A stretch of DNA of 34,509 bases, from the NCBI GenBank assembly GCA_022600935.1, contig JAHZJL010000086.1:1-34509 (forward strand), given 5' to 3'. Positions 17,870 through 22,237 of the stretch are shown here, piece by piece. The notes beneath the pieces are model-generated. The model ran no database searches. It was not told where the DNA came from and saw only the letters and a program-made list of their open reading frames with translations. Source of the stretch: Gammaproteobacteria bacterium (GTDB lineage Bacteria; Pseudomonadota; Gammaproteobacteria; Methylococcales; DRLZ01). Made by a program: the position numbers and the translations under genes. Position 1 is the stretch's first letter, and the number at the start of each line of letters is the position of its first letter.

Positions 17870-20800
17870 TTAATCTGATTCAGTATCCAGCACTGTTTTC
17901 AAGGCTTCTCGCGCTGCATTGAATGAAAACCATTTTTCCACATTTTTCAAACCATTGTTGGATAGTTTATTCCATAATTTGCTATCGTTGTAGAGCTTAA
18001 TAATTGCTTGTGCAAATTCGTTCTCGTTATCGGCAAGCAAAATATCGTGGCCATCACGGGTAAACATCCCTTCTGCGGCAATCGATGTAGCCACAACCGG
18101 CTGACCGTAACTCATGCTCATATTGACTTTGCCCTTGACACCGGCACCATAGCGCAACGGAGCAATGGCAATCCGGCAGTCATCGACAAATGGCTCAATG
18201 TCTTCAACAAAACCTTGGAATACCACACCATCTCCTTGCAGGTCGCTGACTTCCCTGGGTGCTTTGCTCCCGATAATATGCAACTGGATATCCAGCTCCT
18301 TTCTGACCAATGGAAAAATATCCCTGGCAAACCAGGTGATCGCATCAATATTAGGTGGGTGTTGGTAACCGCCGACAAACATAATGTCTTTGCGTTGTCG
18401 ATAGGGTTTTCTGCGACCATGTACATGATGAATATTGGACAGAATTTCAACTCTGGCGTGTTCAGCTTCGCTGGCCAGAAACTCTTGCTCAAATGAGGAA
18501 ACCACCAGTGTAATATCAGCCTGTTCAATGACACTCAATTCCTTGCCGCGGGTTTTCTGTGCTGCTTCAGCCAGTTTGTCACTGTTTTCAAATTCAGCCA
18601 GACGTTGCTCACGAAGATAATGCAAATCCACTGTATCGAACAAAATAATGGCATTCGGACAGTATTGTCTGATCATTGGCATGACCGGCTCGGCAATATA
18701 ATAGCGGCTCAGAATCACTGCATGAAAATAACCACCATGTGACTTGAAATAATCAATTGGGGTTTTGACATGTGGATGATAAATACATTCAACGCCTGTT
18801 TGCTGTAATGCCTGAGTATAGGTCTCGATGTTGGCCAGATTTTCCGCCATAAAACACACGTGATAACCCAGCGACTGCAAAATCTCGATCAGATTGACCA
18901 TACGCAACGAACCGGAATCCTGATCCGGTGTCGGTGTGCAGGCATCGTAGATCAACACTTGTCTGGGCTGTCCCTGGAGACGGCAGATCCCGATTTCGGT
19001 ACCTGGATTAGCTTGATGCTTGAGTGGCTCATTCCATTTGTCCAGAAATTTGCTCTGATTGACAACCTGATATTGTTTAACGCCACTGGCTAAATCAGTA
19101 CCTGAGGTCACGCCTTCAAAGTGAGTCACCACCGATGCTGGTTGATAATAAGCGTGCAAGCCAAGTTGCCTGACTGCAAATGCCAGATCGGTATCTTCAT
19201 AATAAGCGGGTTTATAGCGCTCATCGAAACGACCTAATTGTTCAAACAATTCTTTGCGGATCATGATACTCGCGCCGCTACAATAGCTAACCTTGCGCAC
19301 AAAATTGTATTCCGGTTTGTCAGCCTGGTCATTTCGACCATAATTCCAGCCTGATGCATCGGAAAACACAATCCCGCCAGCCTCCTGTAAACTTCCATCC
19401 GGATAAACCAGTTTGCTGCCGACCAGACCGGTATCCGCAAAACGTTCAAACACAGTCAACAAAGCATCCAGCCATTGATCATGAACCAGGGTGTCGTTGT
19501 TGAGAAACACCAGAAACTCACCTTTGGCAAGCGCTGCACCCTGGTTACACGATTCTATAAAACCGCTATTATGCTGTTTCCTGTGATAAGTCATGCCAGT
19601 GACCACTTTGATCGTCGATTCTGTTTCATCACTCGAACAGTCATCGATGACAAGCACTTCAAAACCAGTTGAAGTCGGTAGTTTAGACAGGGATTGCAAA
19701 CAGTTATAAGTATGTAAAAACTGGTTGTAGACAGGAATAATAATGGAAACAGTCGGGCTTTCGCTGCTCTCAATGGTGAAAGGCAAATACGATTGCTGCA
19801 GTTCAACCTGAGGCTGAAGCGGCTGAGGACGCTCGATTTGGTGTTTGAATTTACTGTATGCTGCTATGGCAGTTCCAATCACACCACGCGCACCCAGACT
19901 GCGCTTGATTCGGGCCGGATAAGTACCGATTCTGATCAGTGTAAAGTTTATCCGGTTAACATATTCATCCATCCAGCGCCGATAATCACGCAATGGCCTG
20001 GTCAGCTTCCAGGAATGACTGTGGTAGATTAATTCCAGTTCGGCATTGGCTGTGGATAACTGGTTTTGTGTGATATTGAGTTGTTGACTGGTTTCGCGGA
20101 GCTGATGTTGGCTATCACAAAACTTTTGATTCAAATCATTAAATTGGTTGCTCAATTCAGCAATCTGCTGACTCTGGTGCTGATTTTCCTGTTTGAAATG
20201 GTCAGTCGCTGTGCTTAATTGATTAACATGTTGTTGTTGCTTCAATGCCCAGTCTGTGCGTTCCTTGACTCTGGATTCAAGTTCGACAATGATCTCTTTT
20301 TTGAGATTCAGGGTTCTGCTGAGCGCCAGCGCATGACTGGCAACTGATTTGATTTGGTGAGTTGTGTCAGGATCAATAATTGCATCGTTCTGACTCCGTT
20401 CAGCATCAATCCATAATGCATGATATTGCTGAATCATGTGTTCTGTATCAGGCTGATTGACTGTCAACAGATTGTTTCTGATTTCTTCAAGTTGTTGCGG
20501 ATTCCCGACCAGTTGATTGATGCAGTCGATCAGCGCCTGTGCTTGAGGTTGAATCAAAAATCCTGTCTTACCATCTTTAATTCTGGTTTTCAAAGCGCCA
20601 TGTGCAGTCGCAATCACCGGAATGCCTGCCTGAAACATTTCTGATAACGTATAACTGAACGTTTCCGAGGCTATTGATAGAATCAGGGCAAGATGGGGTT
20701 GGTAGTGTTTAAGCAACTCCGGTAACTCTGATGCCAGGTAATGTTCAATCACTTCGACATTGGAATACCGACTGTAATCGCAATGATCACGACCAGCGCC

Positions 20801-22237
20801 CAGGAAAATTATCTTGAAATCAGTTAATTGGGGAAGACTATCTTCGATTAACTGCTGGCCTTTAGGCAATCCCATTCGACCGGGTACAAGAATGGTGAAT
20901 TGTCTGGATGGCTTTGGAGCATCAATTGCATTGAATTGCCGGACACCATGGGTAATGATCGTAATATCCCGGTAAACATGATGATCAGACAGTTTCTGTA
21001 AATGCTCAACGACAGACTGGTCCGGCGCAATCAAACGAACGTTAGGCTTCTCATAAAGCGTTTCCAGCCGGTTACGCCATTGCGATAACTGATCGGCTTC
21101 AATACCTCCAAACGGCTCTTGCTTACTTTGCTCAAAAGCTTGATCCAAATCAGCTTCTGTGATGTGTTCCTTGTCCAGTTGGGCCAGTAAGGCTGGCCAA
21201 TGTGGAAAATAATCATGGAAAATGCGAACAGTTGGCAGACCAGTGTCCAGGCACTCCATGCTGTGACCAATCAAAGTTGAAACAAATATGACCTGTACCG
21301 AGTATCGATGAATAATTTCAGTCAATATACTTCGATATTCACGATGTTCAATGATTGTCGAATCAATCGGCAACGACAGTTCGAAGCGGTCAATTTCAAT
21401 TGAATCCGTACCACCCAGCAGCAAACGAAATTGCTCGCCATAACTGTGTCTGAAATATTCGCCGGTACTCTGTAATACCAGATGATGACATTGCCGGTCA
21501 GTATGGCAGACATCATTCACCCATTTTTGCACGCCACCTTCCCAGTTCATGCAAATATGGAGTACAACCGGCTTTGAATCAAGCTGAAACCAATGATTGG
21601 GTAACTGTCGCGTATCTAAATACTGGCATAACCGGTAACGCAATTTTGATAAGGGATGGCTGGGTAAGCGTTTCTGGTTGTTGATGCGCGGTAAGTTGGT
21701 TGGCTTGATGGTCGAGGAGCGTTGTGTTGGCTGCACGAGCAGATGATCACATGCACAACAATCGAGATTGCTCACACCATCAGGCAAAGATTCCAGCTGT
21801 ATTGGCAGTTGAGTGAGATTGACAGCAAAACAGAACGGATTGATCTGATCAGTCGCATACCAACGCTGTGGTTGTTGCAGATGGTAAATCAATTGATCCA
21901 GTTTCTGCAGCGAACCTTTGAACAGCATGTCTTCTGCCAATGGAGACAAGGCATGGTTTCTGGTCGTCAGTGCAGAACTGATGTTGATTGTATAATCTGA
22001 CAGCAGCGGTGTAATCAATCGTGTCAGCCAAAACTCCGGCAACTCGCATCGGGCATCGATAACAACAAGAATCTGATCGCTTTTCCTGACTTTCTCACTG
22101 GCAAACTTCAGAACAGATAAATTGAATGATCGCTCATCAATCTGACTGAGTGTCCCTGAAAACTCATGATTGAGTTGAACCGGTTTTGATGCGTGATACG
22201 CAACGATATGGATATGTCCGCAATCTGTTTTAATCAT
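17870..22237 (-). CDS. Multidomain glycosyltransferase (GT4-like / coiled coil / GT2 / GT4)
   Basis: 1455 aa. GT4-like half (FTILVPGRMGLPKGQQLIEDSLPQL..IASETFSYTLSEMFQAGIPVIATAHGALKTRIKDGKTGFLIQP). Coiled coil (QQQHVNQLSTATDHFKQEN...) with 'SHSWKLTRPLRDYRRW'. GT2 domain (TVSIIIPVYNQFLHTYNCLQSL..VLVIDDCSSDET..FLNNDTLVHDQWLDALL..YYEDTDLAFAVRQLG). C-terminal GT4-like domain (DIMFVGGYQHPPNIDAITWFARDIFPLV..FVDDCRIAIAPLRYGAGVKGKVNMSMSYGQPVVATSIAAEGM). Confidence 0.93.
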   Translation of the reverse strand: MIKTDCGHIHIVAYHASKPVQLNHEFSGTLSQIDERSFNLSVLKFASEKVRKSDQILVVIDARCELPEFWLTRLITPLLSDYTINISSALTTRNHALSPLAEDMLFKGSLQKLDQLIYHLQQPQRWYATDQINPFCFAVNLTQLPIQLESLPDGVSNLDCCACDHLLVQPTQRSSTIKPTNLPRINNQKRLPSHPLSKLRYRLCQYLDTRQLPNHWFQLDSKPVVLHICMNWEGGVQKWVNDVCHTDRQCHHLVLQSTGEYFRHSYGEQFRLLLGGTDSIEIDRFELSLPIDSTIIEHREYRSILTEIIHRYSVQVIFVSTLIGHSMECLDTGLPTVRIFHDYFPHWPALLAQLDKEHITEADLDQAFEQSKQEPFGGIEADQLSQWRNRLETLYEKPNVRLIAPDQSVVEHLQKLSDHHVYRDITIITHGVRQFNAIDAPKPSRQFTILVPGRMGLPKGQQLIEDSLPQLTDFKIIFLGAGRDHCDYSRYSNVEVIEHYLASELPELLKHYQPHLALILSIASETFSYTLSEMFQAGIPVIATAHGALKTRIKDGKTGFLIQPQAQALIDCINQLVGNPQQLEEIRNNLLTVNQPDTEHMIQQYHALWIDAERSQNDAIIDPDTTHQIKSVASHALALSRTLNLKKEIIVELESRVKERTDWALKQQQHVNQLSTATDHFKQENQHQSQQIAELSNQFNDLNQKFCDSQHQLRETSQQLNITQNQLSTANAELELIYHSHSWKLTRPLRDYRRWMDEYVNRINFTLIRIGTYPARIKRSLGARGVIGTAIAAYSKFKHQIERPQPLQPQVELQQSYLPFTIESSESPTVSIIIPVYNQFLHTYNCLQSLSKLPTSTGFEVLVIDDCSSDETESTIKVVTGMTYHRKQHNSGFIESCNQGAALAKGEFLVFLNNDTLVHDQWLDALLTVFERFADTGLVGSKLVYPDGSLQEAGGIVFSDASGWNYGRNDQADKPEYNFVRKVSYCSGASIMIRKELFEQLGRFDERYKPAYYEDTDLAFAVRQLGLHAYYQPASVVTHFEGVTSGTDLASGVKQYQVVNQSKFLDKWNEPLKHQANPGTEIGICRLQGQPRQVLIYDACTPTPDQDSGSLRMVNLIEILQSLGYHVCFMAENLANIETYTQALQQTGVECIYHPHVKTPIDYFKSHGGYFHAVILSRYYIAEPVMPMIRQYCPNAIILFDTVDLHYLREQRLAEFENSDKLAEAAQKTRGKELSVIEQADITLVVSSFEQEFLASEAEHARVEILSNIHHVHGRRKPYRQRKDIMFVGGYQHPPNIDAITWFARDIFPLVRKELDIQLHIIGSKAPREVSDLQGDGVVFQGFVEDIEPFVDDCRIAIAPLRYGAGVKGKVNMSMSYGQPVVATSIAAEGMFTRDGHDILLADNENEFAQAIIKLYNDSKLWNKLSNNGLKNVEKWFSFNAAREALKTVLDTESD

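Follow-up and report, generated by a model that had tools for sequence, protein, structure and literature searches.

Among the closest described systems is WbbB of Raoultella terrigena / Klebsiella pneumoniae O12, in which a GT99 glycosyltransferase (GT) module, a helical spacer and two polymerizing GTs are arranged on one polypeptide; the two C-terminal GTs polymerize the chain, whose length is determined by the spacer and whose end is capped by the N-terminal module (PMC9587256, PMC11231755). Another is ORF6 of the K. pneumoniae O7 locus, which is composed of a methyltransferase-kinase, a coiled coil and two GT2 modules (PMC11231755). Here, we describe a multi-module GT that is encoded between mnmE and mnmG by a single open reading frame (ORF) of 1455 amino acids (aa), located at 17870..22237 on the minus strand of the window, that is, the whole stretch of 34,509 nucleotides that was analysed. 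The host is a Methylococcales (Crenotrichaceae) metagenome-assembled genome (MAG), labelled G000, and all the window coordinates given below refer to the minus strand. We found nothing in the literature on a GT at the mnmE-mnmG locus. The gene is real, selected and ordinary in kind, and the slot in which it resides is less special than had been assumed. With a probability of roughly one half, we take its product to be a cytoplasmic enzyme that works at the inner membrane, building a surface glycan on a lipid-linked acceptor, is encoded in a permissive slot and has no functional tie to tRNA modification.

The GT gene and its modules

The ORF starts with ATG and has no internal stop codon. According to Pfam and the sequence itself, the protein consists of an N-terminus of about 215 aa without family, a GT4 module, a coiled coil, a GT2 module and a second GT4 module, and the GT4 and GT2 Pfam domains exceed the gathering score within the one ORF (Glycos_transf_1, aa 440-589; Glycos_transf_2, aa 831-1001, E 1.2e-23; Glyco_trans_1_4, aa 1283-1418, E 1.4e-40). 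An earlier note on this DNA had described a single ORF with two GT4-like modules, a central GT2 and a coiled-coil spacer, and both Pfam and the heptad periodicity agree with that description.

The N-terminal part (21593..22237) is weakly conserved in the relatives (15-53%), and its predicted local distance difference test (pLDDT) score in AlphaFold is mostly below 45. Residues 1-215 gave no Pfam match in any of six relatives, even with the threshold relaxed to E 1. A degenerate GT2 in this part was considered and rejected, since the hhalign comparison with the GT2 module was not significant (2.8% probability). GT4 module A (aa ~220-611; 20405..21580), which was identified by Pfam, has a GT-B fold, and its AlphaFold model matches the GT4 enzymes WbnH, PglA, MshA and PimA in Foldseek. 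Its EX7E motif is present (E525...E533), with both glutamates kept in eight aligned sequences. The coiled-coil spacer (aa ~641-740; 20018..20317) is helical in the AlphaFold model and contains no Gly or Pro across 100 residues; its heptad-period power is 1.83 versus 0.21 in shuffled sequences, a value reached by none of 2000 shuffles. The length of the coiled coil varies among the relatives, and in the window GT it is followed by an SxSWxxTxPLR motif at aa 740-750.

The GT2 module (aa ~822-1080; 18998..19774), also assigned by Pfam, has intact PVYN, DD, NND and ED motifs, and these, including the DXD-like NND and the ED, are kept in 9/10 aligned sequences. In none of the ten aligned sequences does GT4 module B (aa ~1089-1455; 17873..18973), the Glyco_trans_1_4 match, have the EX7E glutamates; it carries instead an invariant GAG(V/I)KGK signature, which reads GAGVKGK in the window; the second EX7E glutamate is retained by a shorter GT4 of the same genome. 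Module B also matches the model TIGR03087 (stp1), a PEP-CTERM/XrtA system glycosyltransferase, at E 6.5e-36, with a score of 124 bits that falls short of the cut-off of 317 bits for membership. Hydropathy gave no transmembrane segment, the highest 19-residue value being 1.24.

Like WbbB, the window GT has three GT modules on one polypeptide, one before a helical or coiled-coil spacer and two after it, and the roles of its modules are presumed from this layout. Unlike in WbbB, the N-terminal module is an ordinary GT4 rather than a GT99, the C-terminal pair is GT2-GT4, and the exporter genes wzm-wzt are not adjoining in the full-length cases whose neighbourhood could be seen. No WbbB chain was among the PDB matches at E 0.01. 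The order of N-terminal enzyme, coiled coil and two C-terminal GT modules is shared with ORF6 of the O7 locus, whereas the N-terminal enzyme of the window GT is a GT4 and its gene lies outside an O-antigen cluster.

The mnmE-mnmG slot

The GT gene is flanked by mnmE upstream (22258..23610) and mnmG downstream (15965..17851). Pfam/NCBIfam assigned these and the other flanking genes (YidC, MnmE, MnmG, RsmG, ParA, ParB, RnpA, DnaA), with RnpA and the divergent DnaA on the upstream side of the block. The co-directional packing reported earlier is exact, with a gap of 20 bp on the mnmE side (22238..22257), in which no strong Shine-Dalgarno sequence is evident, and of 18 bp on the mnmG side (17852..17869). 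Both gaps are too short to hold a promoter, and at neither junction was a promoter or terminator signal found above chance. As judged from this layout, the gene is probably read through from the yidC-mnmE side within a longer transcript.

Within the genus, the comparison was made with one other genome, G001/HyVt-476, which is also a Crenotrichaceae MAG. In that genome, the two junctions are divided between two contigs, with mnmE-GT on one (L029, 14-bp gap) and GT-mnmG on the other (L031), and the assembly break falls inside the GT gene. The two proteins share 58% aa identity in the N-terminal half and 71% in the C-terminal half. The ratio of nonsynonymous to synonymous polymorphism (pN/pS) between them is 0.39 and 0.25, respectively, which is in the range of the flanking genes, with synonymous sites near saturation. 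The GC content, the GC content at third codon positions (GC3) and the codon usage of the GT gene are in line with its neighbours. Because both junctions recur in G001, the pN/pS is low and the codon usage is flank-like, these sequence measures indicate that the gene is intact, under purifying selection and long resident at the locus. An assembly chimera could be rejected from the recurrence of both junctions, and a recent foreign insertion from the native codon usage, the near-saturated synonymous divergence (dS) and the pN/pS of 0.25-0.39.

The GT is not found at this locus across the whole order, a distribution which the earlier note would have taken as the mark of an ordinary conserved neighbour: a search of 311 Methylococcales genomes with the N-terminal half gave strong matches in G000 and G001 only, plus a partial match in G013 that lies on a different contig. 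The idea that the GT interrupts a tight, conserved mnmE-mnmG pair, however, did not survive the survey of the order, which covered 60 relatives. Besides the window, 24 of them carry mnmE and mnmG on one contig, and the two genes are adjacent in none; the smallest separation among the 24 is 4.8 kb, and many are separated by at least tens of kb. Consequently, the proposed integration into a conserved block stands in so far as the position is kept in the second genome of the genus, while the premise of a conserved block fails in Methylococcales.

The slot is also often filled in the class. In a sample of 85 gammaproteobacterial genomes, both genes lie on one contig in 44, namely within 1 kb of each other in 12, with 1-10 kb between them in 18, and further apart or rearranged in 14. 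The 18 short intervals hold assorted unrelated genes, and none contains a homologue of the window GT (0/18, phmmer). In one of them (G140), an unrelated GT4 of 351 aa is located just upstream of mnmG. The window-type GT was found at mnmE-mnmG in its genus alone. The mnmE-mnmG joint is a permissive slot, and the position of the GT is less surprising because this slot is ordinarily open.

Several side observations belong to this region. By sequence inspection, the genes between mnmE and mnmG include a moxR, DUF58 and transglutaminase-like set in G010 as well as in families f6 and f7; the set, seen in several gammaproteobacterial families (L097, L099, L100, L101, L155, L157, L160), may have resided in the slot for a long time. 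In G009, mnmE and mnmG occur a second time, 89 bp apart and at only 38-51% identity (L105, C24:94000-100000), probably on a contaminating contig. In the window itself, a 415-aa ORF lies near parB (10031-11278), and its N-terminal part matches DUF937.

Relatives and exporter loci

Full-length relatives (30-43% identity) occur in four other gammaproteobacterial genomes, at unrelated loci; neighbours of relatives were named by sequence inspection, except where Pfam was run. The relative in a Lysobacterales MAG (L028, G676; 1525 aa, 43%) is beside a penicillin-binding-protein-like (PBP1b-like) gene and a GT2-like gene, that of L116/G065 (1455 aa, 40%) adjoins a RelA/SpoT gene, and that of L117/G424 shows 41% identity over residues 196-1451. 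The fourth (L118/G075; 1489 aa, 30%) is more divergent, has a degenerate GT2 and lies in a small GT group. It keeps the full layout (L118:6152-8578, minus strand), and from the absence of PVYN, DD, NND and ED its GT2 module is probably inactive.

The C-terminal half has relatives of its own. Stand-alone GT2-GT4 proteins of ~720-735 aa, which are without the N-terminal GT4 and the coiled coil, are present in the Methylococcales genomes G051 and G032, with 46-47% identity over residues ~820-1450, and sit between the sdh genes (sdhCDAB) and an lhr-type helicase gene. In G060 and G050, the relatives are directly downstream of wzm-wzt, and the GT2-GT4 pair is fused via a coiled coil to an N-terminal methyltransferase (G060) or to a sulfotransferase-like N-terminus assigned by sequence inspection (G050). 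These two resemble ORF6 of the O7 locus in having a non-GT N-terminus before the coiled coil and in lying beside wzm-wzt. In the tree of the C-terminal half, the window GT, G001 and L028 cluster with 97/98 support, apart from the other C-half proteins of Methylococcales. The window genome also encodes a 1356-aa sulfotransferase-GT2-GT4 fusion (G000:C258; L123:7867-11934, minus strand), placed between polA-like and glyA-like genes and adjoined by a second sulfotransferase-like gene.

The isolation of the window GT from other glycan genes had been thought special. Since several other single GT genes of the window genome are scattered among housekeeping genes, with the wzm-wzt locus of C245 as the exception, and the full-length relatives elsewhere are mostly lone genes as well, isolation is rather the usual state. 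The exceptional locus (L126, G000:C245) is compact, with wzm-wzt followed by a methyltransferase/coiled-coil gene and a GT2 gene, and is conserved at L176 (G001:C95). It encodes a methyltransferase protein of 580-592 aa, a GT2 and a protein of 618-619 aa for which Pfam gave no match, and holds few GTs. At the end of the methyltransferase protein of G000 are a coiled coil and an FWLSRPL segment, which resembles the SxSWxxTxPLR segment of the window GT. The C-terminal carbohydrate-binding domain of Wzt (Wzt_C) gave a weak match in G000 and matches over the cut-off in G001, G075 and G424.

Probable function and alternatives

Extension, and perhaps capping, of a surface glycan on a lipid carrier is the most likely function, because the module order is WbbB-like and exporter-linked GT2-GT4 fusions with a plan like that of the O7 protein exist. 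Extension of the glycan chain would fall to GT2 and GT4-B in the C-terminal half, and this GT2-GT4 unit also occurs on its own and in fusions linked to exporters. At the N-terminal end, GT4-A would add a different, perhaps final, residue, with the coiled coil separating the two ends as a ruler or an oligomerization rod, and the SxSWxxTxPLR segment after it could serve as a membrane-proximal anchor. The gene would lie between mnmE and mnmG owing to the permissive slot near the origin, probably as part of a longer transcript. It is more speculative that the separate wzm-wzt locus of the genus exports the product. The family might comprise orphan polymerase-terminators on single polypeptides, with a GT4 cap and a coiled-coil ruler, acting away from the exporter cluster and in trans with a distant wzm-wzt, which we regard as a doubtful proposal.

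Several points weigh against a lipid-linked surface glycan made in this way. GT4-B, lacking EX7E, may be non-canonical or inactive, and the AlphaFold model of the C-terminal half, built from a two-row alignment, is poor (pLDDT 44) and was judged unusable. No Wzt_C exporter match was found in G676 and G065 (62% complete), two of the genomes with full-length relatives. Wzt_C is present in 4/6 genomes with the full architecture versus 25/114 in the class, which is too few to establish a link; with the two negatives, its co-occurrence was therefore rejected as proof of an ATP-binding cassette (ABC) pathway. In addition, the exporter locus of the genus has its own methyltransferase-coiled-coil protein, next to which a further capping protein would be superfluous.

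The protein might instead carry out protein O-glycosylation and transfer a short oligosaccharide directly to a protein that is secreted or exposed at the surface, an activity known from some stand-alone multi-module GTs that act on flagellin or adhesins. The GT gene is mostly solitary in differing settings, without sugar-nucleotide or export genes, and the Foldseek matches of module A include, among many GT4 enzymes, the adhesin O-glycosyltransferase SdgB. However, no evident acceptor gene adjoins the GT in the relatives inspected, the C-half relatives are located in exporter clusters, and no flagellin gene was found (0 Flagellin_N matches in G000 and G001, 85% and 91% complete), by which flagellin glycosylation in particular was rejected. 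On balance, we consider protein O-glycosylation rather unlikely. It is improbable that the GT is part of a genomic island, since decayed, that had inserted at the 3' end of mnmE/trmE, a known target of integrases of the SGI1 family. Gammaproteobacterial islands of the SGI1 type do use the trmE 3' end as their integration site (PMC6531882, PMC8409611), and in the order mnmE and mnmG are separated by anything between 4.4 kb and over 1 Mb, but there is no integrase between mnmE and mnmG, the codon usage is native, and no convincing repeat of the mnmE end was found beyond the GT. An island remnant with attachment-site (att) repeats was rejected on the last ground.

The least probable explanation, to which we give very little credence, is functional integration, in which the GT was recruited to the origin operon so that its expression tracks tRNA modification or chromosome partitioning, which might, for instance, coordinate the growth of the envelope with the cell cycle. 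Such a recruitment would fit the identical placement, orientation and close spacing of the gene in both genomes of the genus, as well as the absence of promoter or terminator signals above chance at the junctions. However, the relatives have other neighbours, among them sdhCDAB and lhr, relA/spoT and a PBP1b-like gene, and the mnmE-mnmG slot takes many unrelated genes.

For the reading of gene neighbourhoods, mnmE-mnmG adjacency is unsafe as a reference for Gammaproteobacteria, and the two genes are as a rule separated in Methylococcales. For the protein family, a candidate synthase with cap, coiled coil and polymerase has been recognized, which is mostly carried as a lone gene, unlike its exporter-linked cousins; therefore, its acceptor and exporter would come in trans.

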